From Spongiibacter nanhainus (GTDB taxonomy: Bacteria; Pseudomonadota; Gammaproteobacteria; Pseudomonadales; Spongiibacteraceae): a DNA stretch of 64,000 nucleotides. Location: NCBI RefSeq assembly GCF_016132545.1, contig NZ_CP066167.1:310001-374000 (forward strand). Reading direction: 5' to 3'. The translations under genes and the position numbers were made by a program. Under the pieces are notes generated by a model. The model saw nothing but the letters and a program-made list of their open reading frames with translations. It made no database searches and was not told the origin of the DNA. How positions within the stretch are numbered: the first letter of the stretch is position 1; each line of letters starts with the position of its first letter. Below are positions 1,801-33,314 of the stretch, piece by piece.

Positions 1801-1822
1801 CCTGCTGCCCCCAGGGCTCGGC

Positions 1823-2650: not shown

Positions 2651-2717
2651 ACCGCGTCGGCAATATAGCAAGCTAAACTGTAAGCAGCATACATAGACGG
2701 TGACAGGAGTCTTATTC

Positions 2718-4085: not shown

Positions 4086-4087
4086 CT

Positions 4088-4441: not shown

Positions 4442-4452
4442 CGAGAGCCGCT

Positions 4453-5946: not shown

Positions 5947-5954
5947 GGGAACTT

Positions 5955-6509
5955 ATGCAACCACTTTATCTCATTGGTGAGCAGCAGCACGCCGTTACAC
6001 CCCTGAAGCGCAATGATCGAATTTGGTTGGAGATAGATGGCCATGCCGTCGATGTCCAATTCACTGAGCTGGGGCCTCACCGCGGCGAGATCATTGTCAA
6101 TGGGCATCTCAAGTCCTACCACGTTGCCCAAGAAGGCCAGACCCTGTTCGTACACTGTGCAGGCAAAACTTGGCGGCTTGAAGCGAAAGATGAGTTCGAA
6201 GCGTCTCGCAGCAGCGAAGCTGGTGCCGGTGAAATTAGGGCGCCCATGCCGGGAGTTTTGGTAGAGAGTTTCGCGAGCACTGGAGATCGCGTCGAGGCCG
6301 GCCAAACTGTGCTGTTGATTGAAAGTATGAAGTTGCAAACCGAGATAAAGGCGACCGTCAGTGGCGTGATCTCTGTGGCCGATCTTGCCGCTGGTGAGGC
6401 CTTTGAAAAGGGCGCGCTGCTAACCGTGATTGAGGCAGACAGCGAAGGCGAGAGTGTCGTTCAGACTGATGCGGACTCCAGTGCAATGAACTCAGAAGAC
6501 AAGCGATAG
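5955..6509 (+). CDS. Biotinyl carrier subunit of the acyl-CoA carboxylase
   Basis: This 184-residue protein has a C-terminal biotinyl domain: APMPGVL, then the biotinylation site ESMKLQ with Lys126 as the predicted biotin acceptor, then IKATVSGVI. The family usually has A/S-M-K-M; here Leu follows the lysine, an allowed variant. The first 85 or so residues (EIDGHAVDVQFTEL, WRLEAKDEF) look like strands of the BT domain that docks the biotin carboxylase on the carboxyltransferase in MCC/GCC-type enzymes. It is followed 11 bases later by the carboxyltransferase gene. Confidence 0.88.
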   Translation: MQPLYLIGEQQHAVTPLKRNDRIWLEIDGHAVDVQFTELGPHRGEIIVNGHLKSYHVAQEGQTLFVHCAGKTWRLEAKDEFEASRSSEAGAGEIRAPMPGVLVESFASTGDRVEAGQTVLLIESMKLQTEIKATVSGVISVADLAAGEAFEKGALLTVIEADSEGESVVQTDADSSAMNSEDKR

Positions 6510-6520
6510 GGGTATCCCCA

Positions 6521-8128
6521 GTGCGTAGAATACAATCAAAACTGAATACTGCCTCGCAGGATTACCGGGATTATCGCGACCATAATTTGAATTTGGTGAG
6601 GGATTTCCGTGAGCGGCAGGAGCGGGCGCGCTCAGATCGCCCGCAGCGCGATATAGACCGCTTGCGCAATCAAAACAAAATGCTGCCACGAGAGCGCCTG
6701 GACTTGTTGCTGGATCCAGGAACGCCCTTCCTTGAGTTTTCTTCCCTCGGTGCCAATATGGCTTACGATGGCGCAGCGCCAAGCGCGAATTGCATCACTG
6801 GTATTGGCGTTGTTTCCGGCCGGGAAGTGGTCATCGTGGCCCACGATAGTTCCAATAAAGGAGGGGCCTGGTTCCCGCTAACCGTCAAGAAGATGGTGCG
6901 TGCACTGGATATCGCCCTTGAAAACCGCCTTAACGTCATTCACCTGTGTGACAGTGCCGGTGGGTTCTTACCCATGCAGTCCGAAGTGTTTGGCGATAAG
7001 TACATGTCGGGCCGTATTTTTCGCAATCAGGTGCAGTTGTCAAAAATGGGCTGCAAGCAATTGGCTTTGGTATTTGGCCATTGCACGGCGGGGGGAGCCT
7101 ATGTTCCCGGTCTTTGCGAATACTCGGTTATCGTCAACGGAACGGGCGCGGTGTTTCTCGGTGGTCCACCTTTGGTAAAGGCCGCTACCGGTGAGGATGT
7201 GACGGTGGATGAGCTGGGCGGTGCGGCCATGCATACATCGGTGTCTGGCACCTGCGATTACTACGCTGCCAGCGAGCGTGAAGCGGTGGCGATCGGTCGT
7301 GAGATTGTACAGCAGTGGGAGTTGCCCCCGAAATATCCACTGCAAAGAGATACCCCTGAAGACCCCTACTACGATCCGTATGAGCTCTACGGCGTCATTC
7401 CCAACGACATAAAGAAGCAATTCGATATGCGAGAGGTCATCGCGAGACTTGTTGATGGCAGTCGCTTTTCAGAATACCAGCCTGACTATGGTGAAACCTT
7501 GGTATGTGGTATGGCCAATATATGGGGATATAAGGTTGGCATAATCGGTAATAACGGTGTTCTGTTCAATGACAGCACATTGAAAGCTGCGCACTTTATG
7601 ACTCTCTGTAACCAGAACAATATTCCGCTGGTTTTCTTACAGAATATTACCGGTTATATGGTGGGTAAAGAGTACGAGCAAAAGGGCATTACCAAAGATG
7701 GCGCCAAGATGCTGATGGTGCAGGGCAGTGTCGACGTGCCCAAGTTTACCATTATGACCAATGGTTCGTTTGGCGCAGGCAATTACGGTATGTGTGGTCG
7801 AGCTTGGGACGCCCGCACTTTATTTAGCTGGCCAAATAGTCAGATCGCCGTCATGGGTTCTGATCAGGCGGCAAATACACTGACAACAATTAAGGTAAAT
7901 CAGCTTAAGCGTCAGGGAGAGCAACCGACACCGGAACAGCTGGAGCATATCCGGCAGGAAGTGCTTGAAGACTACACCAATACCACCAGTGCCTATGCGA
8001 CCAGTTCAGAGATTTGGGACGACGGCATTATCGATCCGGTGGATACGCGCAATGCACTGGCTATGTCGATTTCTGTTTCATTGAACGCGCCTTTTGCCGG
8101 TACCAACTACGGCGTTCTGCGGCTTTAA
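6521..8128 (+). CDS. Carboxyltransferase (beta) subunit of acyl-CoA carboxylase, AtuC/LiuB-like
   Basis: The 535-residue protein transfers CO2 from biotin to the gamma position of a branched enoyl-CoA. Family marks are MLPRERLDLLLDPGTPF, the acyl-CoA region DSAGGFLPMQSEVF, GHCTAGGAYVPG, FLGGPPLVKAATGEDVTVDELGG and the C-terminal-half oxyanion region NITGYMVGKEYEQKG with GAGNYGMCGR. Start is GTG 6521, with AGGGG 8-12 bases upstream. The lack of HMG-CoA lyase and the presence of atuA nearby favour geranyl-CoA over 3-methylcrotonyl-CoA as substrate, but the specificity residues were not checked. Confidence 0.88.
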   Translation: MRRIQSKLNTASQDYRDYRDHNLNLVRDFRERQERARSDRPQRDIDRLRNQNKMLPRERLDLLLDPGTPFLEFSSLGANMAYDGAAPSANCITGIGVVSGREVVIVAHDSSNKGGAWFPLTVKKMVRALDIALENRLNVIHLCDSAGGFLPMQSEVFGDKYMSGRIFRNQVQLSKMGCKQLALVFGHCTAGGAYVPGLCEYSVIVNGTGAVFLGGPPLVKAATGEDVTVDELGGAAMHTSVSGTCDYYAASEREAVAIGREIVQQWELPPKYPLQRDTPEDPYYDPYELYGVIPNDIKKQFDMREVIARLVDGSRFSEYQPDYGETLVCGMANIWGYKVGIIGNNGVLFNDSTLKAAHFMTLCNQNNIPLVFLQNITGYMVGKEYEQKGITKDGAKMLMVQGSVDVPKFTIMTNGSFGAGNYGMCGRAWDARTLFSWPNSQIAVMGSDQAANTLTTIKVNQLKRQGEQPTPEQLEHIRQEVLEDYTNTTSAYATSSEIWDDGIIDPVDTRNALAMSISVSLNAPFAGTNYGVLRL

Positions 8129-8150
8129 TAACAATTAATAGGATACTTTC

Positions 8151-9320
8151 ATGAGTCAATTCTCCCTCAATAGTGAGCAGAGACAGCTGTTCGACCATAT
8201 TGATAAGTTCGCGAAGGCCGAGTTATTACCACTGGCTGAGAAGATGGATAACGAGGAGTGGTGGCCCAGTGATATTATGCCTAAGGTCGGTGAACTGGGC
8301 TTTCTCGGCGTAACCGTCCCCGAGCAATATGGTGGCTGCGGGATGACAATGCTTGAGGCGGGGCTGATTCTTCAGGCCTTTGCTCGCTACAACCACGCCT
8401 TTGCACTGGCTTGGGTTGCCCACGACAATCTGTGTGCGAATAACATTTACAACAATGGCAGTGAGTACATACGCGAGAAATATTTGCCCAAGTTGTGCTC
8501 TGGCGAGTGGATAGGCTGCCTGGGCTTGACAGAGCCAGGGGCCGGTTCGGATGCCTTGGGTTCGATGCGTACAAAGGCAGTTCGGGATGGCGATGAGTAT
8601 GTAATCAACGGCTCCAAGATTTACATAACCAATGGCCCGGTCGCCGATGTTTGTCTACTCTACGCTAAAACGGAGGTGGGCAAGGGCTCAAAAGGCATTA
8701 CTGCTTTTGTCGTTGAAACGAATACACCGGGCTTCAAAGTAGCGCAAAAGCTTAACAAAATGGGCTTTCGCGGCAGCCAAACCGCAGAGCTGGTATTTGA
8801 AGACATGCGGGTGCCTGTTAAGAATATTGTTGGTCGCGAGCACGAAGGACACCAGGTGGTCATGAGCGGCCTAGATTTTGAGCGCTCCCTGATTAGCCCC
8901 ATCAATGTGGGGATCGCCGAGCGAGCCTTTGAGTTGGCGGTGGACTATGCCAAAACCCGGGAGCAGTTTGGCAAGCCGATTTCGTCGTTTCAGATGGTGC
9001 AATCCCGGCTTGCGGATATGTATGTCTGGACCGAGACGATGAAGAACTTTTGCTGGACCGTCCTGGCTGAAGTCTCAGAGGTGGATGAGACCCAGGCCGG
9101 GCGTGGGGAAATTCACGCACGCACAGCTGCATCGGTAATGTACTGTGCCAATACCTGCAATCTGGTTCTGGATAATGCTGTTCAAGTCTTTGGCGGCAAC
9201 GGCTATATCTGGGAGTCGGAGATTAACAGGCTGTTCCGCTCGACAAAATTACTTGAAATCGGTGCTGGCACTACGGAAGTCCGCAAAATGATTATAAGCG
9301 GTGAGCTGTTGAAGGCTTAG
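8151..9320 (+). CDS. Acyl-CoA dehydrogenase, isovaleryl/citronellyl-CoA dehydrogenase-like
   Basis: This 389-residue FAD flavoprotein has LGLTEPGAGSDA, the FAD-binding strand region YITNGPVADVC, REQFGKPISSFQ and the C-terminal EIGAGTTEVRK. The usual catalytic Glu of medium-chain enzymes (YEGT) is replaced by Ala in IGAGT, and a Glu stands at residue 244 in GLDFERS. That is the arrangement of isovaleryl-CoA dehydrogenase, where the base sits in that helix. It would form the 2,3-double bond in citronellyl-CoA or a similar branched acyl-CoA, passing electrons to ETF. ATG 8151 follows the carboxyltransferase gene by 22 bases. Confidence 0.88.
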   Translation: MSQFSLNSEQRQLFDHIDKFAKAELLPLAEKMDNEEWWPSDIMPKVGELGFLGVTVPEQYGGCGMTMLEAGLILQAFARYNHAFALAWVAHDNLCANNIYNNGSEYIREKYLPKLCSGEWIGCLGLTEPGAGSDALGSMRTKAVRDGDEYVINGSKIYITNGPVADVCLLYAKTEVGKGSKGITAFVVETNTPGFKVAQKLNKMGFRGSQTAELVFEDMRVPVKNIVGREHEGHQVVMSGLDFERSLISPINVGIAERAFELAVDYAKTREQFGKPISSFQMVQSRLADMYVWTETMKNFCWTVLAEVSEVDETQAGRGEIHARTAASVMYCANTCNLVLDNAVQVFGGNGYIWESEINRLFRSTKLLEIGAGTTEVRKMIISGELLKA

Positions 9321-9335
9321 CCCGGGAGAGGCGAT

Positions 9336-10190
9336 ATGACGATTGAAAGTCAAGAGTTTGGGATGTCGTCTGAGCAGCTGGCGGCACAAAAGACAGTCTT
9401 TGACCCCAGTCTCTTCGAAGGTAAGCGCGTTGTTATATCTGGTGGCGGTAGCGGTATCGGCAAGGCCGCGGCGTGGTTGTTTGCCCGGCTTGGTGCAGAG
9501 GTAACTATAGTCGGACGAAGCGAACAAAAGCTGCAGTCTGTTGTTGAAGAAATACGTAGTCATGGATATTCGATAGTCAGCCATTCCCTGGACATTCGCG
9601 ATGCAAGTGCCGTTGAAAACTTCTTCGACGGACAGGGTAGTCCGATAGATGTGTTGGTTAACAGTGCGGGGGGGCAGTTTCCGCAACAGTCTATTGACTT
9701 TAGTGCCAACGGCTGGAAAGCCGTTATCGATACAAATTTGAATGGCACCTGGTTTATGATGCAGGCGGCTGCGCGTCACTGGCGAGCGCTCGATGCGCCG
9801 GGCAATATTGTTAACATTGTGACCGTCATTAGTCGAGGCATGCCGGGAGTGGCGCACACCTGTGCTGCTAGAGCAGGTGTGATCTACGCATCGAAATCGG
9901 TAGCGGTGGAATGGGCGCCACTTAATATTCGTATTAATTGTATCGCGCCGGGTATCACCAACACCGAGGGGATGAAGGTGTATCCTGATGAGGCGGTCCG
10001 CCACTTCACCGATTCCAATCCCATGCGCCGTTTTGCCTCGTCCTGGGAAATTGCCGAGGCTTGCGCATACTTTGCCAGTGATGCCTCAGGGTTTATTACC
10101 GGTGAGGTGTTAACGCTAGATGGCGGGGGGCAACTGTGGGGTGAGCTGTGGACAGCGGGCAAGCCCGACTACTTCAAAACCTCGTCATGA
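9336..10190 (+). CDS. SDR-family oxidoreductase, trans-2-enoyl-CoA reductase (PECR)-like
   Basis: The 284-residue protein has the Rossmann motif VVISGGGSGIGKAAA, NSAGGQFPQ and NIVTVISRG. Where most SDRs have Y-x-x-x-K, this one reads TCAARAGVIYASKSVAVEW; the pattern A-A-R-A-G-V with L/V-A-x-EW matches peroxisomal enoyl-CoA reductase (PECR) and related acyl-CoA SDRs, in which the classical Tyr/Lys pair is displaced. It probably reduces or oxidises a branched acyl-CoA intermediate. It closes the operon; AtuB and AtuG of Pseudomonas are also SDRs. The TetR gene on the opposite strand ends 20 bases later. Confidence 0.78.
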   Translation: MTIESQEFGMSSEQLAAQKTVFDPSLFEGKRVVISGGGSGIGKAAAWLFARLGAEVTIVGRSEQKLQSVVEEIRSHGYSIVSHSLDIRDASAVENFFDGQGSPIDVLVNSAGGQFPQQSIDFSANGWKAVIDTNLNGTWFMMQAAARHWRALDAPGNIVNIVTVISRGMPGVAHTCAARAGVIYASKSVAVEWAPLNIRINCIAPGITNTEGMKVYPDEAVRHFTDSNPMRRFASSWEIAEACAYFASDASGFITGEVLTLDGGGQLWGELWTAGKPDYFKTSS

Positions 10191-10210
10191 GCTTGATTTG
10201 AGCCGGTGCG

Positions 10211-10891
10211 TTAACCAACTAACTCCCGCAGTTGTAGCACCAGGCGTCGTATTTCCGGATCGGTACCACTATCTGCCCGATAAGCGATGCCGAAGTAAAC
10301 GATATCCGTCAGTTCGTCGGCGATATCATTGACGTCCAGCGATGAGCGGTCAAATATCAGATCCCACAAATAGTGTTCCATTGCGCCAAACAGGACATGC
10401 CGGATCATTCTGCTGGATACGCTGTCAGCAATTTCGCTGGTCTTCTTGCCTTCGTTAACAATGTCTGTGACGACTTGGGTGTAGCGTTTGCTTAGCTCGT
10501 AAATTTGTATGCCGAGTTCACGCTCCGCCTCCCGCGCCTCTTTCAGCATTAGTGAGCATAAGGCAGCGTTTTCAAAAAGCAACTGAGTGTGAGTGTGAAT
10601 AACGAAGCGCAAGCGCTCTCTTACGCCGGTAACGCGTTGTACGCCCTGCTCCATAACTTCAGTGATGCCTGCATAGAATTGCTCTATGACTTTAGCAACT
10701 AGGTTGTTCTTGGACTTGAAGTAATGGAGTACCGTGCCTTCAACAACTCCCACTTCCTTGGCAATGTCGGCAACCGTCCAGGACTCATACCCGCGGGTCT
10801 CAAAGACTTTTCTCGCCGCATTTAGTATCTCGCGTTGTCTTTCTTCGGGCGGGAGGCGTGTGCGCCCCACGGGTTGTGCTGCCTTATTCAC
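10211..10891 (-). CDS. TetR/AcrR-family transcriptional regulator
   Basis: The 226-residue protein has an N-terminal helix-turn-helix (ILNAARKVFETRGYESWTVADIAKEVGVVEGTVLHYFKSK) and a ligand-binding C-terminal domain of low conservation. It starts with GTG at 10891, with GAGAAG about 6 bases upstream. It converges with the carboxylase operon and diverges from the acyl-CoA ligase gene at 11233, sharing a 341-bp intergenic region that holds palindromes. By analogy with AtuR it is likely a repressor relieved by an acyl-CoA, but here its gene is at the far end of the operon. Confidence 0.85.
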   Translation of the reverse strand: MNKAAQPVGRTRLPPEERQREILNAARKVFETRGYESWTVADIAKEVGVVEGTVLHYFKSKNNLVAKVIEQFYAGITEVMEQGVQRVTGVRERLRFVIHTHTQLLFENAALCSLMLKEAREAERELGIQIYELSKRYTQVVTDIVNEGKKTSEIADSVSSRMIRHVLFGAMEHYLWDLIFDRSSLDVNDIADELTDIVYFGIAYRADSGTDPEIRRLVLQLRELVG

Positions 10892-10944
10892 TATATCTTC
10901 TCGATAAAAATGTTAGGCCCAATAGTAGGGGCTTTTATGTTGGG

Positions 10945-10958
10945 CATCAACGTTGATG
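10945..10958. promoter_or_regulatory. 14-bp perfect palindrome between tetR and the acyl-CoA ligase gene
   Basis: CATCAACGTTGATG is self-complementary and lies 54 bp upstream of the TetR start codon. GCCCAA (10917-10922) and TTGGGC (10940-10945) form another inverted pair overlapping its left edge. Its place in the divergent region makes it a candidate operator for the adjacent TetR protein. Confidence 0.45.
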
Positions 10959-11076
10959 TTGACGGCCAAGCGAATGCAGTTAACAAGGGTTTCAGTCGAA
11001 CCAAATCCCGCCTGCTATGCGCTGTTATGATAAAAAAGTCTAACTCAATAGTAGATGTAGGTTGTAGCGTTTACAC

Positions 11077-11094
11077 TAAAAGGCGTTACTTTTA
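11077..11094. promoter_or_regulatory. 18-bp inverted repeat upstream of the acyl-CoA ligase gene
   Basis: TAAAAG and CTTTTA are perfect arms around GCGTTA, about 140 bp before the ligase ATG. It is A/T-rich and could be a regulator site or chance. It is the second dyad of the tetR-ligase intergenic region. Confidence 0.3.
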
Positions 11095-11232
11095 ACATAT
11101 ATTTATGCGTATTGTGCTCTATTTGAGGACGGTGTTTATATTGAGCGTTATGCAATATGAGTTTATTCTGAAGCGACTAATGGTGTCGGCGTTGACCGGA
11201 CTTACAATAATTACATAACAACGAGGTGATCT

Positions 11233-12792
11233 ATGCGTTGTACTCAGCCAATCAGGCGCTCGGCGCAGCTATGCCCTCAAAAAACAGCCACCATATGCGG
11301 AGATAGGGTCAGGACTTTTACAGAATCGAAGGACCGTATTTCTCGCCTGGCGGGGGCCCTTCAGGCATCGGGCATTAAAGAAGAGGACCGGGTGGCGATT
11401 CTGTCCCTCAACTCGGATCGCTATTATGAAAGCTATTTTGCCATCCCTTGGTCTGGTGCGGTGGTAGTGCCTTTAAATATCCGCTGGACTGTACAGGAGC
11501 ATATTTACGCACTTAATGATTCGGCAGCGACGATGTTATTGGTCGATGATGCCTTCTACGGCATTGTTGATGACATAGTCAGCGGTATCGATGCTGATAT
11601 AAGAATCATTTATATGGGAGATGGCGATACGCCTGAAGGGGCTTTCGGCTTTGAGGATCTAATCACTGAGGCGCGGCCTGTTGGCGATGCAGGACGAAGA
11701 AAGGACGATCTTTTTGGTATCTTCTACACAGGGGGTACCACCGGCTTTCCAAAAGGGGTGATGATCTCCCACTCCAACTATTACAGCAGCTCGATGGCGC
11801 TCATGGCAGAGATGAATATCTGCCAGGGAGAAGTTCGCTATCTGCATGTGGCACCGATGTTTCACATGGCGGATGCTGCGATCAGCATGGCTAATACCAT
11901 CTCTGGAAACCCCCATGTTTTCATCCCCGCCTTTAATCCGGCTCAGATAGTAGAAAAAATACAGGCGCATTCGGTTACGGATGTTCTTCTTGTGCCGACG
12001 ATGATTGCGATGCTCCTTGAAGATGGTTGCCTGGAGCGAGCCAAAATCGAGTCTCTTAAAAAAGTCATCTACGGCGCGTCGCCAATGACCGAGGGAACAT
12101 TGACAGCAGCGTTGCGGGTACTGCCGGGTGTGCAGTTCTATCAAGCCTACGGGCAGACTGAATTGGCCCCTGTCGCGACGGTCTTGCGTCCTGAGTACCA
12201 CGTGTTGGAAGGGGAGCGAGCTGGAAAGATTCGCTCGGCAGGTCAAGCCAGCCTGATTTTGGAGCTAAAGATTGTAGATGCCGATGGCAATGAGTGCGAA
12301 GCCAACGACATTGGTGAGGTTTTGGTTAGCGGTCCCAACGCCATGTTGGGTTACTGGAACAACCCGGAGCAAACGCAACAGACCTTAAAAGACGGATGGG
12401 TCCACACCGGCGACGCGGGATACCTGGACAAGGATGGCTTTCTGTTCCTGGTGGATCGCGTCAAGGACATGATTGTAACCGGCGGTGAGAATGTGTACTC
12501 GGCGGAGGTAGAGAATGTGGTGTCCCAGCATCCAGCTGTTTTGCAGGTGGCTGTTATCGGCATTCCGAATGCGCAGTGGGGAGAAGCGGTGCACGCTGTG
12601 ATCCGATTAAAGGCCGATGCCCAGTTTGATGAAGAGGAGTTCTACCGTTTCTGTCGGGCGGGTTTGGCGTCGTATAAATGCCCTCGCAGTATAGACATTA
12701 TCGATGGCCCTCTGCCTACTACCAGCGTCGGTAAGATCTCCAAAAAAGACCTGCGTCAACCTTATTGGGAAGGGGTCGGTCGGAATGTGTGA
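11233..12792 (+). CDS. AMP-forming acyl-CoA synthetase (fatty acid/isoprenoid acid CoA ligase)
   Basis: The 519-residue protein belongs to the ANL superfamily. It has the phosphate loop YTGGTTGFPKGVMISH, the A5 motif YQAYGQTELAP, the A7 HTGDAGYLDKDGF, the hinge LVDRVKDMIVTGGENVY and a C-terminal Lys in GKISKKDLR. It would activate a carboxylic acid to its CoA thioester with ATP, feeding the acyl-CoA genes on the other side of tetR (the job of AtuH in Pseudomonas). RBS: ACGAGGTG precedes ATG 11233. SDR and TonB receptor genes follow on the same strand at short distances. Confidence 0.88.
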   Translation: MRCTQPIRRSAQLCPQKTATICGDRVRTFTESKDRISRLAGALQASGIKEEDRVAILSLNSDRYYESYFAIPWSGAVVVPLNIRWTVQEHIYALNDSAATMLLVDDAFYGIVDDIVSGIDADIRIIYMGDGDTPEGAFGFEDLITEARPVGDAGRRKDDLFGIFYTGGTTGFPKGVMISHSNYYSSSMALMAEMNICQGEVRYLHVAPMFHMADAAISMANTISGNPHVFIPAFNPAQIVEKIQAHSVTDVLLVPTMIAMLLEDGCLERAKIESLKKVIYGASPMTEGTLTAALRVLPGVQFYQAYGQTELAPVATVLRPEYHVLEGERAGKIRSAGQASLILELKIVDADGNECEANDIGEVLVSGPNAMLGYWNNPEQTQQTLKDGWVHTGDAGYLDKDGFLFLVDRVKDMIVTGGENVYSAEVENVVSQHPAVLQVAVIGIPNAQWGEAVHAVIRLKADAQFDEEEFYRFCRAGLASYKCPRSIDIIDGPLPTTSVGKISKKDLRQPYWEGVGRNV

Positions 12793-23824: not shown

Positions 23825-24942
23825 CCTCTTTTATCTCGCGCCCCCGGCGGGCACTGGCTGCTTTTACCTTATTGATCTCTGCCAGTCTGATGCACCCTAT
23901 CTTTGCGGTGGCCGAAACCATCCCGCTCTCCAGCGAGGATCAGGCGCGCTTGGGCATTGTCAGTCAGCCTTTGGTTGCGGCCGATAGCAGTGTGGGTATT
24001 CGTGTACCTGCCATCATCATTCCGTCACCGGAGTCTCCCTCTCAGCTGGTAGCCCGTTACGACGGCGTGTTACTGCGCTGGCATCAACCTGGTGGTGCCG
24101 AGGTCGAGGCCGGGGAGCTTGTCGCCACCATTAACAGTCCAGCTCTGGCCCGTGTGCAGGAGCAATGGCTGGCAGCGGTATTTGAGCAGGCCAATCAACA
24201 GGCTTTGTTGGTCAAAGATCGGCAGCTCTATGCCGATGGCATTATCTCCCGGCAGCGCCTGGCGCAAACCGAACGCGCCGCACAGCAGGCATCCTTCAAT
24301 CGCGATGGCTGGCAGGGTCAGTTGAAACAGGCCGGTTTTGATGAGCAGGCCTTAAAGCAACTGCAGAGTGGCCAATTGCAGCCCGGGGACTACCCTCTGA
24401 AGGCGAGCCGGTCTGGGGAACTCAGTCGCGAATACGTTCGCGTCGGTGATGCGGTCTCCGCCAATCAGCCTCTGGCGTCGGTGACCAGCTCCGATACATT
24501 GTGGTTGCATGCCTCTATCAGTGGGGCTTTGGCTGACGGTTTGGCACTGGGTCAGGAATTGCAGATTGCCGAATCCAATAACACCCAGGCCAAGCTAATC
24601 CTGGTCAGCAAGAATCGTGAACTTAGCGCCCCTACCCAGCGGGTGGACATACTGGCCCGTTATCAGCATCCGGTGGCACTGCGGCCTGGGCAGCGAGTCA
24701 GCCTTATTCTGTCCAGCACCAGGGCGGGGGTGAAGGTCCCGGCCAGTGCAGTTACCCGCACTGGCGCCAAAGCCGCAGTCTATGTGCGGGGCGATGATGG
24801 CTTTGAACTGCGCAGTCCGTCTCTGGTTGCGCTGGGTGAGGACTACCTGGCCACCGCGGGCTTGCAAGCCGGTGAGGAGGTGGCCGTGCAGGGCACCGCG
24901 CAACTCAAAGGCATGTTGTTGGGCCTGGGAGGCGCTGAATAA
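23821..24942 (+). CDS. RND efflux periplasmic adaptor (membrane fusion) protein, CzcB/CusB-like
   Basis: The 373-residue protein has a signal peptide (ALAAFTLLISASLMHPIFAVA), the barrel-sandwich/lipoyl strands (ARYDGVLLRWHQPGGAEVEAGELVATINSP), a helical hairpin and a distal beta-barrel (LWLHASISGALADGLALGQEL). It links the inner-membrane pump to the outer membrane channel. No N-terminal metal-binding Met or His cluster of the CusB/CzcB type is obvious. The next ATG overlaps its stop by one base (TAATG). Confidence 0.87.
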   Translation: MTSFISRPRRALAAFTLLISASLMHPIFAVAETIPLSSEDQARLGIVSQPLVAADSSVGIRVPAIIIPSPESPSQLVARYDGVLLRWHQPGGAEVEAGELVATINSPALARVQEQWLAAVFEQANQQALLVKDRQLYADGIISRQRLAQTERAAQQASFNRDGWQGQLKQAGFDEQALKQLQSGQLQPGDYPLKASRSGELSREYVRVGDAVSANQPLASVTSSDTLWLHASISGALADGLALGQELQIAESNNTQAKLILVSKNRELSAPTQRVDILARYQHPVALRPGQRVSLILSSTRAGVKVPASAVTRTGAKAAVYVRGDDGFELRSPSLVALGEDYLATAGLQAGEEVAVQGTAQLKGMLLGLGGAE

Positions 24943-27900
24943 TGCTGTCGCGACTGATTCAATTCTCCCTCAGCCAGCGCCTGCTGATCGGCCTGTTAAC
25001 GCTGTTGTTGATTGGCCTTGGCGGTCGCGCGGCGATGAATATCGCCATCGATGCCTTTCCGGACATTTCTCCCACCCAGGTGAAAATTATCATCAAGTCG
25101 CCGGGTATGACGCCGGAGGAGGTGGAGAGCCTGATCACCCAGCCCATTGAGGTGGAGTTGTTGGGTATCTCCCGGCAGTCGATGCTGCGCTCTATTTCCA
25201 AATACGCGCTGTCGGCGATTACTCTGGATTTTGAGGAAGGCACAGATATTTACTGGGCCCGGCAGCAGGTTGCCGAGCGCATGAACAACATCTGGGATCA
25301 ACTGCCCGCTGGCATTAGCGGCGGTCTGGCGCCAATGAGTACGCCGCTGGGTGATATGTTTATGTTCACCGTGGACAACGAGCAGATGTCACTCAGTGAA
25401 CGGCGTTATCTGCTGGATTGGACCATCCGTCCGGCGCTGCGCACTGTTGACGGCGTGGCCGACGTTAACGCCTTAGGGGGCTTTGTCAAAACCTATGAAG
25501 TGGCGCCCCGTCGGGGCGATATGGCCACGCTCAAGGTCAGTACTCAGCAGCTGATCGAGGCGCTGGAGCGCAACAACCGCAACGATGGGGCGGGCCGCCT
25601 GGACCAGGGCGAGGAAGCCATTCTGGTGCGGGTAGCGGGTGCGCTGAGCTCGCTGGAGGAAATAGCCGACCTCCGTGTCAGCAATGCCGATGGCGAGACC
25701 TTTGCGTTGCGGCAGTTGGCGGATATCCGCCTCGGCGCTTTGGAGCGCTACGGCTCGGTAACCGTGGATGGCAAGGGCGAGGCGGTGCAGGGTCTGGTCA
25801 TCGGTCTGCGCGGTGCTAACGCCCGGCATGTGGTGCAGGGAGTGAAGGAAAAAATCGCCGAAATACAGCCCGCCTTGCCGGAGGGTACGACCCTGAACGT
25901 GTTTTACGACCGCGGCCAGCTGATTGAGCTGGCGGTGGGCACTGTGGGTGAAGCCCTACTGGAGGCGGTGCTGCTGGTGCTGGTGGTGCTGGGACTGTTT
26001 CTGGGTAATGTGCGGGCGGCGCTAACGGTGGCCAGTATTCTGCCGCTGTCGGCCTTGTTCACCTTTTTTATGATGGACCGCCTGGGTATGAGCGCCAACC
26101 TGATGAGCCTCGGCGGGCTGGTTATCGCCATCGGCATGCTGGTGGATTCCGCCATCGTGGTGGTGGAGAACATGGTGTCGCTGCTGTCGCATCACGACGG
26201 CCCCTCCAAGCAGGGCGCCCGCCGCTTGCCGCTGCTGCATATTCTGTTTCGGGCGGTCAAGGATGTGGCGGTACCGGTGACCTCCGGGGTGATTATCATC
26301 GTGATTGTGTTCCTGCCGCTAATGACCTTGCAGGGGCTGGAGGGCAAGTTGTTTGTACCGGTGGCGCTGACCATCGTGTTCGCCCTGTTCGGTGCACTGA
26401 TAATGTCGCTGACCGTGATCCCGGTTATCGCGTCCCTGTTGTTGAAAAGCGGCCAGGACGAAGAGCCCTGGTTGAGCCGTAAATTGATTAGCCTGTATCA
26501 GCCCCTGTTGGCCAAGGCCCTGCAACGCCCCGCTGTGGTGGTGACCTTTGCCGGGGGGCTGCTGGTATTGATGGCGGTGCTGTTTCCCTTTGTGGGTAAA
26601 ACGTTTATGCCCACCATGGATGAGGGCGACTTGATTGTGCAGTTGGAGTCGATTCCCTCGGTGAACCTCAGCAGTGGCATCCGCATGGTACAAAGCGTGG
26701 AAAAAGCCCTGCTGGACAACGTCGAGGAAATCGAGCGGATTGTGTCCCGCAGCGGCTCCGACGAAATCGGTATGGACCCAATGGGCCTGAACGAGACCGA
26801 TGTGTTCCTGCAACTGAAACCCCAGGATCAATGGCAGGTCGCCGACAAGGCCGCCCTGCAGGAGAAGATGCGGGCGGTGTTGGAACAATTCCCGGGAATC
26901 AATTACGGCTTTACTCAGCCGATTGATATGCGGGTGTCGGAAATGCTGACCGGCTCCCGGGGCGATATCGCCATTAAGGTCTTTGGCCCCGACCTCAGTA
27001 CCCTCAATGACCTGGCCCAGCGCATTAGCCATATTGTCGGCAATGTCGACGGCGCGGTGGATACCACGGCCACCCTCAATGAGGGCGCCCAGTATTTACA
27101 GGTCAATGTCGACCGGCTGAAAGCCGGGGCACTGGGCTTGAATGCCGATACCCTGCAACACCGTCTGCGGGCTGAAATCGAAGGGCTGCCGCTGGGCAAT
27201 ATCATTGAGCAGAGTGCCCGGGTGCCGCTGGTACTGCGCTACGACAAACCCGCCGGTGACGGCGTGGTGCAATTGCAGAACAGCCTGATGACCCTGGACG
27301 ATGGCCGGGTGGTGCCGCTGTCCGAGCTGGCCAGTATAGAGCGCATCGACGGTCCGGTGGGGGTGTCCCGGGAGTCGGGGCGGCGCTTTGCCGTGGTGCG
27401 CAGCAATGTGGCGGGCCGCGACCTGGTGGGCTTTGTCGACGAAGCCAAGCAGGTCATCGCCGCGCAGCTCGATATGCCCGAGGGCTATTCGCTGGCCTGG
27501 GGCGGGCAGTTTGAGAATCAGCAGCGCGCGGCCGCCCGACTGGGGCTGGTGGTACCTGTAGCTCTGGGGCTGATTGCCTTGCTGTTGTTTATTACTTTCG
27601 GCTCCTTGAAGCAGACATTGATTATTCTCTCCAATATCCCCTTTGCGCTTACTGGCGGTGTGGTGGCCCTGTGGCTGACTGGCGAGTTTATATCGGTACC
27701 GGCGTCGGTGGGCTTTATTGCCTTGCTGGGCATCGCGGTGATGAATGGGGTCGTGATGATGTCCTACTTTAATCAACTTCGGGCCAAGGGCCTGGATATT
27801 CACACGGTGGTAACCGAAGGTGCAGTGCGCCGCCTGCGACCAGTGATGATGACGGCTACCACCTGTGCGCTGGGCTTGGTGCCGCTGCTGTTGGCCAGTG

Positions 27901-28055
27901 GTCCGGGGTCAGAAATTCAAAAACCCTTGGCCATCGTGGTGATCGGCGGGTTGATCAGCTCGACCCTGCTGACCCTGTTTTTACTGCCAATTATTTATCG
28001 CCGTTTTCACAGTCCACTGGTTCGCCAGACCCAACTCGCTGAGGAGCAAGCCTAA
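24942..28055 (+). CDS. Heavy-metal efflux RND pump (CusA/CzcA family)
   Basis: The 1037-residue inner-membrane pump has the 12-helix RND pattern: one helix near the N-terminus (LLIGLLTLLLIGLGGRAAMNIAIDAFPDIS), a porter domain, helices 2-6, a second porter domain and helices 7-12. The proton-relay helix 4 reads AIGMLVDSAIVVVENMV; it keeps the central Asp but has Ala instead of the first Asp of the CzcA-type DFGxxVDGAV motif, more like the CusA (Cu/Ag) type. Metal specificity cannot be fixed from this. It is translationally coupled to its neighbours. Confidence 0.9.
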   Translation: MLSRLIQFSLSQRLLIGLLTLLLIGLGGRAAMNIAIDAFPDISPTQVKIIIKSPGMTPEEVESLITQPIEVELLGISRQSMLRSISKYALSAITLDFEEGTDIYWARQQVAERMNNIWDQLPAGISGGLAPMSTPLGDMFMFTVDNEQMSLSERRYLLDWTIRPALRTVDGVADVNALGGFVKTYEVAPRRGDMATLKVSTQQLIEALERNNRNDGAGRLDQGEEAILVRVAGALSSLEEIADLRVSNADGETFALRQLADIRLGALERYGSVTVDGKGEAVQGLVIGLRGANARHVVQGVKEKIAEIQPALPEGTTLNVFYDRGQLIELAVGTVGEALLEAVLLVLVVLGLFLGNVRAALTVASILPLSALFTFFMMDRLGMSANLMSLGGLVIAIGMLVDSAIVVVENMVSLLSHHDGPSKQGARRLPLLHILFRAVKDVAVPVTSGVIIIVIVFLPLMTLQGLEGKLFVPVALTIVFALFGALIMSLTVIPVIASLLLKSGQDEEPWLSRKLISLYQPLLAKALQRPAVVVTFAGGLLVLMAVLFPFVGKTFMPTMDEGDLIVQLESIPSVNLSSGIRMVQSVEKALLDNVEEIERIVSRSGSDEIGMDPMGLNETDVFLQLKPQDQWQVADKAALQEKMRAVLEQFPGINYGFTQPIDMRVSEMLTGSRGDIAIKVFGPDLSTLNDLAQRISHIVGNVDGAVDTTATLNEGAQYLQVNVDRLKAGALGLNADTLQHRLRAEIEGLPLGNIIEQSARVPLVLRYDKPAGDGVVQLQNSLMTLDDGRVVPLSELASIERIDGPVGVSRESGRRFAVVRSNVAGRDLVGFVDEAKQVIAAQLDMPEGYSLAWGGQFENQQRAAARLGLVVPVALGLIALLLFITFGSLKQTLIILSNIPFALTGGVVALWLTGEFISVPASVGFIALLGIAVMNGVVMMSYFNQLRAKGLDIHTVVTEGAVRRLRPVMMTATTCALGLVPLLLASGPGSEIQKPLAIVVIGGLISSTLLTLFLLPIIYRRFHSPLVRQTQLAEEQA

Positions 28056-28351
28056 TGTCCAATCAGCAACGTTTGATACTGACTATTCCGCCGAGCTTGG
28101 AAGACGATTTGATCGACTACCTTTTGAGTCTGGAGGACGTCGGCGGTTTCACGTCTTATCCGGTTCACGGCCACGGCGAAAATCGTCAACTGTCCATCGC
28201 CGAACAGGTGACCGGACGCCAGAAGCGGGTGCAGTTTGAGCTGATTTTGCCAAGCGATAAGCTGGAGGTGGTGCTAGCTGGTCTCAGAGAGCAGGTGGGC
28301 AGCGATATTTTTTACTGGCATCAGGACGTCAATGGCAGCGGCCATTTATAA
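28055..28351 (+). CDS. DUF3240 family protein
   Basis: The 98-residue protein (VGGFTSYPVHGHGENRQLSIAEQVTGRQ in the middle) matches the small cytoplasmic DUF3240 family, usually found behind heavy-metal RND genes. The fold is likely PII-like; the function is unknown, perhaps metal-responsive regulation of the pump. Its ATG overlaps the pump stop by one base. A terminator-like hairpin follows, so this is the last gene of the efflux operon. Confidence 0.85.
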   Translation: MSNQQRLILTIPPSLEDDLIDYLLSLEDVGGFTSYPVHGHGENRQLSIAEQVTGRQKRVQFELILPSDKLEVVLAGLREQVGSDIFYWHQDVNGSGHL

Positions 28352-28432: not shown

Positions 28433-29317
28433 TTAACGTTGAACCCATTGCAATACCTCTTGAGCGGCGAGAAAGGCTTCGGCCTCCTGGCCCTCCAGCA
28501 TGGCCAGTGTCGCCAGTAAGCCGGCCTCAATGCAGGTGCTGGCGGCCACGGTCACCGAGCGCGGTGCGCCCATCACCGGCCAACCTGTGCGGGGGTTGAG
28601 AACGTGGGGGTAGCGTTTGCCCTTTTTAAGCAGGAAGCGGCGGGCATCGCCACTGGTGGCCAGACCGCCGCGCTGTAACTGAATCATGGCCGACTGCAGT
28701 CCACCGATACTTTCCACCCCCACCAGCCAATGGGGCTGGCCGGCTGGGGGTGCGGTAGCAAACAAATCGCCGCCAAAGTTAATCAGTACAGGCGTGTCGG
28801 TGAGCTCCAGCACCAGTGCGGCGGCGCGGTCCACCGCGTACTCTTTGCCGATACCGCCAAAATCGATCTCCATCCCCGGCTGCAGGCGCAGGGTGGGGGA
28901 CTGCCAGTGTAGTTTTTCCCAGCCGACGACTTGAAGTAGTGAGTCGATCTGCGACTGGGCGGGCAGGCGATCGCTGCCGTCAAATTTCCAGGCCCGGCGC
29001 AGTACACCGGAGGTCAGGTCAAAGGCGCCGTCGCTGATCTGATAGGCCTGCTGGGCAAAATCCAGTAACTGAGCGGTTTCCCCATCGACTTCTACTGGCT
29101 CGCCATTGGCATTGTTGATGCGGTAGACAATATTGTCGTTGCGATAGCGGGAGAACGTGCCTTCGATTCGCCAGGCCTCCTGGGCGACGGTCTCGGCCAC
29201 GCGCTGCGCCAGCTCAGGGTCAGTACTGTCAATCAGCACCTCGCAGGGACTGGCCATGGCGTCAAACTGCCCTGCCAGTCCGCTATCGGTATGCTTGAAA
29301 GTCAGTTGCCGCTGCAT
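28433..29317 (-). CDS. ApbE-family FAD:protein FMN transferase, divergent subfamily
   Basis: This 294-residue ApbE-like enzyme has DGAFDLTSGVL, DFGGIGKEYAVD, LINFGGDLF, LATSGDARRF and HVLNPRTGWPV. ApbE moves FMN from FAD to a Ser/Thr of an exported target protein. There are two oddities. No signal peptide or lipobox is visible (start MQRQLTFKHTDSGLAGQFD), though most ApbE proteins are exported. The magnesium motif A-D-A-L-A-T is replaced by EAGLLATL, losing the usual Asp. This is a distinct subfamily; activity must be shown. It is the last gene of the minus-strand redox block, 45 bp after dsbD. Confidence 0.82.
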   Translation of the reverse strand: MQRQLTFKHTDSGLAGQFDAMASPCEVLIDSTDPELAQRVAETVAQEAWRIEGTFSRYRNDNIVYRINNANGEPVEVDGETAQLLDFAQQAYQISDGAFDLTSGVLRRAWKFDGSDRLPAQSQIDSLLQVVGWEKLHWQSPTLRLQPGMEIDFGGIGKEYAVDRAAALVLELTDTPVLINFGGDLFATAPPAGQPHWLVGVESIGGLQSAMIQLQRGGLATSGDARRFLLKKGKRYPHVLNPRTGWPVMGAPRSVTVAASTCIEAGLLATLAMLEGQEAEAFLAAQEVLQWVQR

Positions 29318-29362
29318 TTTCCTGGATGCCGATTTGTGATTTTAGACTCGCGATAAAAAGTA

Positions 29363-31141
29363 TTAACTACCTTGAGCGGCTTTAAAAGCCGTGAGGACTT
29401 TTTCTTTGCTCAGCAGTTGCGGTAGCACGACTGCCGGCTTGCCACTGCCGGGGAAGAACACATACAGCGGCACACCGGAACGCTGATAGTGGGCCAACAA
29501 GCGACTGACCTCGGCATTGCGATTGGTCCAGTCCGCCTTCATATAGCGAATATGCTGCGTGCTCATGGCGTTTTTAACGGTGTCGGTGCCCAGGGCGATT
29601 TTTTCATTGGCCTTGCAGGTGATGCACCAGTCGGCAGTGACATTGAGAAAGATCGGCCCGCCGTCCTGGTGCAGCGCCGATAGCCGCGCCGGGCTATAGC
29701 GCAGGGCGTCGCCGTCCGCAGTGAGGGGGAACTTGCTCTGTTCTGTGGAGGGCGTCTGGATAGCAGCGGTCTCCGGCGTTATCCCCGACAATACCAGTGC
29801 GGCTCCCAAACAGGCGCTCACGGCCAGGCCACGGTGCCAGCGGGTGGGTTTGTTCCAGAAATACACCGCCACTGCGACAAACACGCAGCCCACCAATACC
29901 AGCATGGCGGCATTGATGCCGGCCTGACGGCCCAGTACCCACAGTAACCAAATGCCAGTGAGGTACATGGGAAAGGCCATAATCTCTTTGAGGGTGACCA
30001 TCCAGTTGCCGGGCCTGGGGAGCAGGCGCCCCAGGCCCGGTACAATCGATATCAGCAGGAAGGGCGTGGCCATGCCCAGGCCCAGAGCCAAAAATATGGT
30101 CAAGGCAATCGGCATGGGCTGAGTCAGCGCAAAGCCAAGCGAAGCCCCCATAAATGGCGCGGTGCAGGGGCTGGCTACGACCACGGCCAATACGCCAGTA
30201 AAGAACGACCCACTTAAGCCGCCTTTTTCAACTAAGTTTTGACCGACGCCTGTCAGCCCGCTACCCAGTTCGATGGCGCCAGAAAAACTCAGGCCCATGA
30301 TAAAAAACAGGTAGACCAAGGCCGCGACGAACCAGGGTGATTGCAGCTGATAGCCCCAGCCCAGTTCCTGCCCAGAGGCTCGCAGCAATATAAGCAGGCC
30401 GGCCACCAACATAAAGCTGGCCACGACGCCGGCGGTATAGATCAAGCCGTGCATTCGCCGTTCCCCGGCGGAGCTGTCGCTGCTCTCCAACAGGCCGATT
30501 GCCTTGAGCGCCAGAACCGGAAACACGCAGGGCATGAGGTTGAGGATCAGTCCGCCGGCGAAGGCCAATGCAGCCATGGCCAGCAGTTGCGGTATTGAGA
30601 ATACTCCGATGCTGCTTGCCGTGCCGGCGTCGAGGGTGGTGCCGATCTCGTTGTCGCTGTTGATAGTGCTCGTGCTGCCCCCATCAATGCGGGTGAGGGT
30701 TCCGCTGTCTGGCTCGACCCGATAGAGGCGGTGGTTGGGGGGATAGCACAGTCCGGCATCGGCGCAGCCCTGGGAACTGACGCGCAGGGTGAAGGGATCT
30801 CTCGTGGGCAGGGCGAGTTGGGCCTTGAGCTGGTGGTAGAACACCTCGACATCGCCAAAGTACTCGTCACGCTTGTGCTTACCCCGGGGTAATTTTATAG
30901 CGAGGGATTGGCTGTGCTCGCCTTCTATTATTGCGGCTTTGAAACGAGAGCCGTAAAGGTAATAACCCTCGGCAATGTGCCAGCGGATTAGCAGCGTATC
31001 GCCGTCTATTTCCGGCGTCATTTGGTAGGCCTGCTCGACGGGCAGGAATTGCTCGGCGTTGGATTCCACGTCGGTGGCATGGGCCGAGCTGGACAACAGC
31101 AAATTGAGAATAACAACAATGTAGATAACGGATATTTTCAT
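29363..31141 (-). CDS. dsbD: Thiol:disulfide interchange protein DsbD
   Basis: The 592-residue protein has a signal peptide (MKISVIYIVVILNLLLSSSAHA), the periplasmic alpha domain with the QGCADAGLCYPP cysteine pair, an eight-helix membrane core with the two key cysteine segments LMPCVFPVLALK and ASPCTAPFMGASLGF, and a C-terminal thioredoxin domain with WCITCK. It carries electrons from cytoplasmic thioredoxin to periplasmic thiol proteins such as TlpA or cytochrome c maturation factors. I chose the ATG at 31141; the frame is open far upstream but that part is a shadow of the neighbouring gene. A strong terminator for the upstream gene lies at 31172-31202. Confidence 0.92.
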   Translation of the reverse strand: MKISVIYIVVILNLLLSSSAHATDVESNAEQFLPVEQAYQMTPEIDGDTLLIRWHIAEGYYLYGSRFKAAIIEGEHSQSLAIKLPRGKHKRDEYFGDVEVFYHQLKAQLALPTRDPFTLRVSSQGCADAGLCYPPNHRLYRVEPDSGTLTRIDGGSTSTINSDNEIGTTLDAGTASSIGVFSIPQLLAMAALAFAGGLILNLMPCVFPVLALKAIGLLESSDSSAGERRMHGLIYTAGVVASFMLVAGLLILLRASGQELGWGYQLQSPWFVAALVYLFFIMGLSFSGAIELGSGLTGVGQNLVEKGGLSGSFFTGVLAVVVASPCTAPFMGASLGFALTQPMPIALTIFLALGLGMATPFLLISIVPGLGRLLPRPGNWMVTLKEIMAFPMYLTGIWLLWVLGRQAGINAAMLVLVGCVFVAVAVYFWNKPTRWHRGLAVSACLGAALVLSGITPETAAIQTPSTEQSKFPLTADGDALRYSPARLSALHQDGGPIFLNVTADWCITCKANEKIALGTDTVKNAMSTQHIRYMKADWTNRNAEVSRLLAHYQRSGVPLYVFFPGSGKPAVVLPQLLSKEKVLTAFKAAQGS

Positions 31142-31171
31142 ACTGGCCACCCATTTTGACCGGGGTAGAAC

Positions 31172-31202
31172 AAAAAAGGCGCGACTTCCGGGGAAGGGCG
31201 CC
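31172..31202 (-). terminator. Rho-independent terminator after the DUF3570 gene
   Basis: On the minus strand GGCGC pairs with GCGCC around an inner CTTCC/GGAAG stem, followed by six Ts (plus-strand As 31172-31177). A second inverted repeat CTGCCGG/CCGGCAG (31209-31240) lies between it and the DUF3570 stop. It separates the TlpA-DUF4266-DUF3570 unit from dsbD. Confidence 0.85.
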
Positions 31203-31256
31203 AAAGCTCTGCCGGATGTCGCGGTAGTATTGCCCGGCAGTGAGGGAGACCCTGGT

Positions 31257-32564
31257 TTAAAAGTCGTACACCACTCGCAACATAAGGGCGTCAACATCCG
31301 GATACAGTTCCTGCTTGTTGAGTTCGCCAAACTTGCCGTCTGGCTCATTACCGCTTTGCAGGTAGTACTCCAGCGCCACGCTCCAACTGTTGTTGGGGTT
31401 GTCCTGCCCCAGCTCGGCGCCGAAGGTATAGCCGTTAAACTCCCCCAGTCGATAGTCAGCTGACGCTTCGACCTTGTCGTTGCCGGCCACCGGTTGGCTG
31501 CCGTCCACAAAGAAGGGGGTGTAGAAATCCGCCGCGCTCTGTTGGTACAGCCTGATATGGGGTTGCAGGTAGAGGGTGTCGCCAAATTTCCAGCGGTAGC
31601 GCAGATCGATGGTGTGGGAGCTAATGCCCCAGTCGTCCACCATAAAGCGGTAGGAGGCATCCAGCACATCGCCGCCGATGTAGCGTTTGTACTGCCCATA
31701 TAGGCTGTGCTTCAGCCGGCTGTCGGGGCGGTTTTCGTAGACCACGCTGGGGAGATTAGGCTCGTTGCCATTGGTGAACAAAGGGCGGCCGCTTACCGGG
31801 TCCACCACGCTGATAATTTTATACGGGTCGGTCAGATAGCCACTGGATTGGCTCAGTGAATAATTGACCTGGAAAAGGCTGTTTTTGTCGATGACCTGGG
31901 TGACCCCGGCCACCAGGTCAAACAGCGTTTTGGTATCGCTGCTGCCATCCCGTGGCTGGCTGGCATCGGCCTCCTGCATCACGCCAAAGGCGATAGGCTT
32001 GCCGCCCACCGGATCGATGGCGTCGACGCCAGCGGAAATACCGCCGTTCCACGTGGTATTGCCCTGGTTGGTATCCCAGGCGAAAGACGAGTTTATCGAC
32101 AGTGACTGGTAGTCGTATTCCGATGATACATTCCCCCCCAGAACCATGGTGAGGTCTTTGGAGAGGGGGCGCTCCCAGGCCGCATTCAGTGCGACTCGGG
32201 TGTCTTTAAAGGATTCGTCCAGCGGGATCTCGCCGGCCTTAACGCTATAGCTGCTATGGCCGGAGGGTGTGGTGAAGGTTTGTGGCCGATCGGTGGGTAC
32301 AGCGCCGCTGCCCGAGGCACCGGTCAGGGTGTCCAGCGTTAGCTTCAACGATAGGGTTTCGTCGGTGTCTATTTGCTTGACCGCCTTGATAACGGGCTCT
32401 GCGGCGCTGACCCGGTCGGTCTCGTTGTAAAACAGTAGTGCGGCACTGACATCCCAGTCACCCACGTCGTGGGCGTTTTCAGCTAGGGCGGCATTGGCGC
32501 CCACCAACGCGCAGCTGGCGGCGGCCAATGACAGGCGAATCGATTTTTTGTGGTGAGTTTTCAT
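31257..32564 (-). CDS. DUF3570 outer membrane beta-barrel protein with a possible flavinylation motif
   Basis: The 435-residue protein has a signal peptide (ALVGANAALA-E) and a barrel-like mature part with alternating strands, ending VVYDF (terminal Phe), as in outer membrane proteins; it matches the DUF3570 family. Residues 78-84 read D-T-L-T-G-A-S, which fits the ApbE target consensus D-x-x-(S/T)-G-A-(S/T), with Ser84 in the position that carries FMN in NqrC-type proteins. An ApbE gene lies two genes away. Known: ApbE and its motif. Inferred: that this barrel is flavinylated. The operon also encodes a DUF4266 lipoprotein and TlpA. Confidence 0.8.
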   Translation of the reverse strand: MKTHHKKSIRLSLAAASCALVGANAALAENAHDVGDWDVSAALLFYNETDRVSAAEPVIKAVKQIDTDETLSLKLTLDTLTGASGSGAVPTDRPQTFTTPSGHSSYSVKAGEIPLDESFKDTRVALNAAWERPLSKDLTMVLGGNVSSEYDYQSLSINSSFAWDTNQGNTTWNGGISAGVDAIDPVGGKPIAFGVMQEADASQPRDGSSDTKTLFDLVAGVTQVIDKNSLFQVNYSLSQSSGYLTDPYKIISVVDPVSGRPLFTNGNEPNLPSVVYENRPDSRLKHSLYGQYKRYIGGDVLDASYRFMVDDWGISSHTIDLRYRWKFGDTLYLQPHIRLYQQSAADFYTPFFVDGSQPVAGNDKVEASADYRLGEFNGYTFGAELGQDNPNNSWSVALEYYLQSGNEPDGKFGELNKQELYPDVDALMLRVVYDF

Positions 32565-32585
32565 AGCGTGATTCCTGACTCCCTA

Positions 32586-32801
32586 TCAGTTACAGCCGCA
32601 GCCACCGCCGCCGAAGCTGCGGCCGCCGCTGGAAGCTTCTTTGCTGAAGTAGATGTGATCGTCCAGGGCCGAGCGCAGTGGCGAGCTGTCCAGCGCCATT
32701 TCCGGTTTGGCCAGGTTTTGCCGCTCCCAGGGTTCAACACCCAGGCTGCTGCAGGCGCTGAGAGAGAGGCCGGCCATTAACAACAAAGCTAGTTTTTTCA
32801 T
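32586..32801 (-). CDS. DUF4266 small lipoprotein ending in GCGCN
   Basis: The 71-residue protein has a lipoprotein signal peptide with lipobox LSAC (Cys17 lipidated) and a short mature part: VEPWERQNLAKP, then a glycine-rich tail SSGGRSFGGGG ending in C-G-C-N. The two tail cysteines form a CxC pair, the only other cysteines. The pattern matches the DUF4266 family, which I recall next to DUF3570 genes. Position between a TlpA thioredoxin and the DUF3570 barrel suggests the CxC pair is a thiol, metal or cofactor site at the outer membrane. Function unknown. Confidence 0.8.
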   Translation of the reverse strand: MKKLALLLMAGLSLSACSSLGVEPWERQNLAKPEMALDSSPLRSALDDHIYFSKEASSGGRSFGGGGCGCN

Positions 32802-32834
32802 CGTCGTCTCGCTAAATCGTGGCAGGTGAAGTCG

Positions 32835-33314
32835 CTAAGGCTGGATGGCGCGTTGAATGGCGCTGTCCAACTTCTCTGGTGTGCTTTTGGTGAAGCCGAT
32901 ATGCTTCAGTAGAAGTTGCCCCCGGCGGTCAAACAGGAAGGAGTTGGGCATGCCCGCCACCTGGAATTGCTGGGCAACGTGGCCGCTGGGATCATGAAAT
33001 ACTGGGAAGCTTGGTTTGAACTGGTCGATAAAAGAGCGGGCGCTATCGGCGTCTTCGTCGAGGTTAATTGTGACTACAGCTAGGTCATTGCCATAGCGGC
33101 TGACCAGCGTGTTCATGTAGGGGAAAGAGGCGCGACAGGGGCCGCACCAGGACGCCCAAAAATCCAAGTACACGACCTTGCCGCGGTAATCGTCCAGATT
33201 GAAACCGGATGCCGGTAACATCGGCGCCGCAGTCGAAGCCAATGCCGCCTGACTCAGACCGGCGGCCCATAAGATCAGGGGGGCGATAATGAGGAATACA
33301 AGTCTGCGCTTCAT
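32835..33314 (-). CDS. TlpA-family thioredoxin-like protein
   Basis: This 159-residue periplasmic thioredoxin has a signal peptide/anchor (LVFLIIAPLILWAAGLSQAALA), the active site DFWASWCGPCRASFPY and the cis-Pro region AGMPNSFLFD. It probably keeps cysteines of partner proteins reduced, drawing electrons from DsbD encoded nearby. It is the first gene of the TlpA-DUF4266-DUF3570 unit; a set of CTTAAG-like boxes lies 51 bp upstream. Confidence 0.88.
   Translation of the reverse strand: MKRRLVFLIIAPLILWAAGLSQAALASTAAPMLPASGFNLDDYRGKVVYLDFWASWCGPCRASFPYMNTLVSRYGNDLAVVTINLDEDADSARSFIDQFKPSFPVFHDPSGHVAQQFQVAGMPNSFLFDRRGQLLLKHIGFTKSTPEKLDSAIQRAIQP

Follow-up and report, generated by a model that had tools for sequence, protein, structure and literature searches.

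The closest described system is the one reported by Meheust et al. in 2021 (PMC8238504), in which DUF3570 was identified as a substrate of ApbE. The DUF3570 protein of C. luteolum, co-expressed in E. coli with its own ApbE, was fluorescent, and the fluorescence was abolished by Ser-to-Ala replacement at both motifs, both of which needed replacing (PMC8238504). Clusters of genes encoding ApbE, DUF3570, a thioredoxin-like protein, DUF4266 with a C-terminal CxC and DsbD were described as a class, and DsbD was proposed to feed a hybrid thiol/flavin chain (PMC8238504). The text of that paper uses none of the terms "barrel", "cytosolic ApbE" and "cytoplasmic", assigns no membrane side, mentions no signal-less ApbE and names the outer membrane for siderophore receptors only. 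A later paper from the same group reports that the sites at which proteins are flavinylated differ according to location, the outer membrane among them, and does not name DUF3570. In a full-text search covering few subscription papers and no preprints, DUF3570 and DUF4266 were found in PMC8238504 alone.

The operon of Spongiibacter nanhainus

The window considered here, i.e., the whole stretch of 64,000 nucleotides that was analysed from S. nanhainus, holds one more member of the published DUF3570/DsbD system, with which it shares ApbE, DUF3570, the thioredoxin-like protein, DUF4266 with CxC, DsbD and the [S/T]GA[S/T] motif. The five genes form a single run on the minus strand (28433-33314) in the order TlpA, DUF4266, DUF3570, DsbD and ApbE, with TlpA upstream of DUF3570 and both DsbD and ApbE downstream of it. 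The TlpA/ResA-like periplasmic thioredoxin (32835-33314, minus strand) has a signal peptide and a WCGPC motif, and matches the Pfam families Redoxin, AhpC-TSA and Thioredoxin_8 and the NCBIfam ResA-like family. It is followed by a small DUF4266 lipoprotein of 71 residues (32586-32801, minus strand; PF14086, E=3e-24), with the lipobox LSAC17 and the C-terminal tail SSGGRSFGGGGCGCN. The DUF3570 outer-membrane barrel (31257-32564, minus strand) is 435 residues long, with a Sec-type signal peptide and a final Phe, and matches PF12094 with E=1.4e-129 and 433 bits (cut-off 25) over profile positions 3-427 of 427. The transmembrane thiol-disulphide reductase DsbD (29363-31141, minus strand) consists of an N-terminal DsbD_N domain, DsbD_TM and a C-terminal thioredoxin-like domain (PF11412, PF02683, PF13899). 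The last gene (28433-29317, minus strand) encodes an ApbE FAD:protein FMN transferase of 294 residues without signal peptide (PF02424, E=4e-65, 220 bits), in which the family motifs GGD, DFGGIGK and HVLNPRTG are all present. A gene for a CzcA-type heavy-metal efflux protein and, behind it, a DUF3240 (P-II-like) gene (24942-28351, plus strand) converge on the operon.

A first-pass annotation of this DNA had placed ApbE, DsbD and TlpA near DUF3570 on the same strand, which the Pfam and NCBIfam matches bear out; it had overlooked the fifth gene of the operon, DUF4266 with its tail GGGCGCN. Its statement that such a device had not been seen described does not hold, the five-gene cluster being an already published class (PMC8238504). 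The window adds one instance of that device, and its added value concerns the time and place of flavin attachment and the face of the membrane at which the flavin works: beyond PMC8238504, it provides evidence from which we infer FMN attachment before export and an FMN position near the cell surface.

The flavinylation motif and its gene neighbourhood

The motif D78-T-L-T-G-A-S84, noticed in the first reading of DUF3570, was found at residues 78-84 of the protein, encoded at 32313-32333 on the minus strand (32333 to 32313 in reading direction). A D..[ST]GA[ST] pattern arises in 102 of 20,000 shuffles (0.5%) of the mature protein. Among 121 DUF3570 homologues, every sequence has Ser or Thr at acceptor position 84, Gly82 and Ala83 are conserved at 95% each, and Asp78 at 89%, being replaced mainly by Glu, in the two-motif class. 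Most of these sequences match D-x-[LIMV]-[ST]-G-A-[ST] in the motif columns, and the TGAS of the window protein (81-84) aligns with the homologues at this family position. A single motif is present in the window protein, while two occur in the N-terminal part of 18 of the 121 sequences; the C. luteolum protein has two modified motifs, and two are also found in a second DUF3570 of S. nanhainus.

As for the neighbourhood, among 59 loci flanked by 3 kb or more on each side, which come from a sample drawn with a narrow alignment and thus biased to gammaproteobacteria with some Verrucomicrobiota, DUF4266 is the most constant companion of DUF3570 (58 loci), followed by ApbE (52), TlpA (49) and DsbD (19). 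In this set, seven genomes have no linked ApbE; each of them encodes a signal-less ApbE at another site, which in four cases lies beside a further DUF3570 gene. Checked against the possibility, raised with the original proposal, that it might be unconserved among DUF3570 proteins with linked ApbE, the motif proved to be both conserved and associated with ApbE. The claim that DUF3570 is covalently flavinylated by the neighbouring ApbE is thus supported by conservation, by association and by the C. luteolum relative (PMC8238504), and the window protein is predicted, with near certainty, to be an ApbE substrate. It is very improbable that the motif is a structural turn kept for folding and that the window DUF3570 is not flavinylated: some divergent DUF3570 proteins have SSAS or SNAS in place of SGAS, but a hydroxyl is retained at the acceptor in 121 of 121 sequences, the association with ApbE is tight and a relative has been directly flavinylated (PMC8238504).

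Two homologues (L113 and L120) read NALTGAS, with Asn for Asp78, and their genomes keep a signal-less ApbE that does not adjoin DUF3570. Proteins with SSAS or Asn78, which have no adjoining ApbE, were considered as controls lacking ApbE and were dropped, an ApbE being found 6-18 kb away or elsewhere in the genome. In relatives of Zhongshania (L050, L047/L035) the TlpA-DUF4266-DUF3570 triple occurs as a tandem duplication in which the DUF4266 tails are identical and one DsbD and one ApbE are shared, and the DUF3570 proteins bear a second motif, DPVTGAT, near residue 256.

Place and timing of FMN attachment

Export signals of ApbE were scored as the hydrophobicity of the leader before the conserved MASPCE, taking the longest possible ORF, and the absence of a signal rests on this score. 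No N-terminal hydrophobic signal was found in any of 96 DUF3570-linked ApbE proteins (maximum hydrophobicity 1.69); 89 of them had a leader long enough for scoring, and the rest had almost no leader. The canonical ApbE proteins of sister genomes (20 of 20) reach 2.5-3.25 and possess a lipobox. The leader of the window ApbE, of about 20 residues, has a hydrophobicity of about 0.5 and no lipoprotein signal. Moreover, at the Asp of A-D-A-x-A-T, which we take to be a metal-ion ligand in characterised ApbE proteins, Gly is found in 105 of 107 linked ApbE proteins, as opposed to Asp in all 20 canonical ones; the window protein reads IEAGLLAT, with Gly. It also carries GKEYAVD, the other signature of the DUF3570-linked subfamily, whose Glu is present in 106 of 106 linked proteins with letters at that position and is replaced by Gly in canonical ApbE proteins, and the GGD of the linked proteins corresponds to GGE in the canonical ones. 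Since the linked enzymes lack a signal and have Gly for Asp, FMN is probably attached to DUF3570 in the cytoplasm, before export. With regard to the export route of DUF3570, a twin-arginine-like leader was seen in one of 121 sequences, where it derives from an over-extended start; Tat export was rejected on this ground, and the other 120 sequences are consistent with Sec export.

The FMN-binding domain of NqrC and RnfG has, like the window DUF3570, a D-x-x-[ST]-G-A-[ST] motif for phosphoester-bound FMN. Unlike the window system, it has a soluble or inner-membrane fold and is served by a periplasmic lipoprotein ApbE with canonical A-D-A-x-A-T. A closer parallel for the enzyme comes from Klebsiella pneumoniae, in which an ApbE equally devoid of signal peptide works in the cytoplasm on a soluble cytoplasmic fumarate reductase (PMC12052999); its substrate stays in the cytoplasm, whereas that of the window is an exported outer-membrane barrel. 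We did not find this combination, a signal-less linked ApbE with an exported barrel as substrate, described in the literature.

Addition of FMN in the periplasm, during the transit of DUF3570, by the lipoprotein ApbE encoded elsewhere in the genome or by the linked ApbE exported in some other way, appears unlikely. All 21 genomes of the window's family carry an ApbE, the canonical ones with lipoprotein signals, and characterised ApbE proteins are mostly periplasmic (PMC12052999); however, the canonical type also occurs without DUF3570, and it is the signal-less type that tracks both the presence of DUF3570 and the number of clusters. In fact, an extra, non-canonical ApbE was found in 13 of 13 genomes of this family with DUF3570 and in one of eight without it (Fisher p=7e-5). 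Furthermore, the C. luteolum protein was flavinylated on cytoplasmic co-expression (PMC8238504), which speaks against attachment in the periplasm. The exception is a genome (G405) with an ApbE alone, no DUF3570 or DUF4266 being present within 18 kb; this ApbE looks like a relic. The genome of S. nanhainus itself has a second, divergent cluster (G000:C1, at about 3.52 Mb) that includes an ApbE of its own and a two-motif DUF3570, and a third ApbE elsewhere, of the canonical lipoprotein type.

The barrel, the thiol proteins and the predicted working face of the flavin

A search by sequence for relatives of DUF3570 among solved structures gave none. The AlphaFold2 model, built with 30 homologues, is a 16-strand barrel (pLDDT 86, pTM 0.84) whose best match among solved structures is the BamA barrel (Z 21.7, 278 residues, 3.1 Å), extending from the first to the last strand. 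The 16-strand topology is common to BamA, FhaC and PelB, which have about 10% identity to DUF3570; to our knowledge, no covalent flavin is known in these barrels. The assignment of DUF3570 to the outer membrane, already made in the first-pass annotation, is supported by the signal peptide, the C-terminal Phe (F435), the 16-strand model and the BamA-type matches. The motif had also been placed just inside the mature N-terminal part; this description understates its position, because in the strand order of the model the motif ends strand 3, opposite the termini. Since both termini are periplasmic in such barrels, this end of strand 3 is predicted to be on the extracellular side.

In the model, the long loops (81-120, 183-210, 242-282, 342-376 and 405-424) all follow odd-numbered strands, and 36 of the 40 positions conserved at 90% or more in the 121 sequences lie on the long-loop half (36 of 271 positions versus 4 of 127 on the other half; p=0.001). 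They include Y46, E48, R51, E149, D151, G242, Y243, D246, P247, K249 and R279, as well as P280, R283, R306, D310, D311, W312, R338, Q342, F347, D370 and R372. These residues look like a functional site around the predicted flavin rather than a plain pore, and it seems quite likely that the flavin is located on the extracellular side. A flavin facing the periplasm, or lying in the middle of the lumen, with the barrel acting as a periplasmic electron acceptor docked to TlpA and DUF4266, would have the advantage that all the known partners are periplasmic and that a thiol donor can most readily be imagined there; it is considered improbable, as the strand order sets residues 81-84 opposite the termini, together with all the long loops and the conserved positions just listed.

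The most constant of the possible thiol partners, DUF4266, shows little variation among close relatives over its last 22 residues (HIYFSKEASSGG..F.GGGCGCN), and all the homologues listed retain CGCN (CGCY in one case) at the very end; in the window, the CxC cysteines C68 and C70 and the terminal Asn71 are encoded at 32589-32600 on the minus strand. In about half of the loci the stop codon of DUF4266 overlaps the start of DUF3570 (gap of -15 or -9), suggesting from the gene layout that their translation is coupled. The CGCN codons appear to contain an out-of-frame ATGCAACTG in many loci (e.g., L013 and L011), and in 34 of 121 sequences ATGCAACTG is where DUF3570 (MQL or MRMQL) starts. The idea that the tail threads the barrel and so reaches the flavin was modelled with a DUF4266-DUF3570 fusion, in which the two in-frame genes were joined by reading the intervening stop codons as Gly. 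In this model, which had a short linker and a shallow alignment, the tail (pLDDT about 30) made no ordered contact with the barrel, and pLDDT was below 50 at residues 58-110.

The mechanism that we favour, with moderate confidence, gives the operon the role of making a flavin-bearing barrel in the outer membrane: cytoplasmic flavinylation is followed by assembly through Sec and BAM and by electron exchange with a thiol chain. A cytoplasmic ApbE dedicated to DUF3570 would move FMN from FAD to Ser84 of the unfolded, newly made pre-DUF3570, which would then be exported by Sec and inserted by BAM as a 16-strand barrel, FMN being placed at the extracellular mouth or in the upper lumen, among the conserved polar and aromatic cluster. 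Electrons from cytoplasmic thioredoxin might pass via DsbD and TlpA to the CxC cysteines of DUF4266, the lipoprotein that is produced beside the barrel and would be the thiol partner of the flavin, and the device would move electrons between the periplasm and some acceptor or substrate at the surface. The thiol relay may thus feed or maintain the flavin, although the path and the direction of the electrons are proposed with low confidence. We infer this path and direction, like the pre-export timing and the surface position, from the evidence given above. Observations that count against the mechanism include the linkage of DsbD in only about a third of the loci and the two Asn78 homologues whose genomes keep an ApbE. 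The fuller proposal, of a cytoplasmic Gly-for-Asp ApbE subfamily, of FMN passing through SecYEG and BAM, and of a surface flavin linked to the periplasmic DsbD-TlpA-DUF4266 relay, is put forward tentatively, at somewhat under even chances. If this holds, polypeptides with a covalently bound flavin are able to travel through the Sec and BAM machineries, and redox chemistry can be presented at the surface of Gram-negative cells by means of a flavin, without haem.

Alternatively, TlpA and DsbD could be a maturation service that keeps DUF4266, or another client, reduced, while the flavin uses a different donor, such as a surface cytochrome, or works as an oxidase or reductase on a substrate. The scarcity of linked DsbD (19 of 59 loci) agrees with such a service, as does the proximity of large c-type cytochrome lipoproteins to the second S. 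nanhainus cluster and to the divergent clusters; TlpA and DUF4266 are, however, nearly always adjacent to DUF3570, and none of the genes seen next to the window cluster encodes a cytochrome, so that this explanation is rather doubtful with respect to the thiol chain proposed above.

The second S. nanhainus cluster (L006, G000:C1:3515000-3531000; positions 1609-12153) has the order TlpA-DUF4266-DUF3570-ApbE and is flanked by three large CxxCH lipoproteins, two of which were scanned and match the RoxA-like cytochrome c family, whose members are relatives of rubber oxygenases. Divergent DUF3570 proteins with D-x-x-S-S-A-S-like motifs were found in a different type of cluster (L130, 7673-10399; L131, 8625-11654; L133; L134), which encodes a CxxCH lipoprotein of 900-1000 residues, an SH3-domain protein, a small outer-membrane barrel, TlpA and DUF4266, and in several of these genomes an ApbE lies 6-18 kb away. 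Two of the CxxCH lipoproteins of the divergent clusters were scanned, and both match the middle domain of hydrazine synthase alpha.
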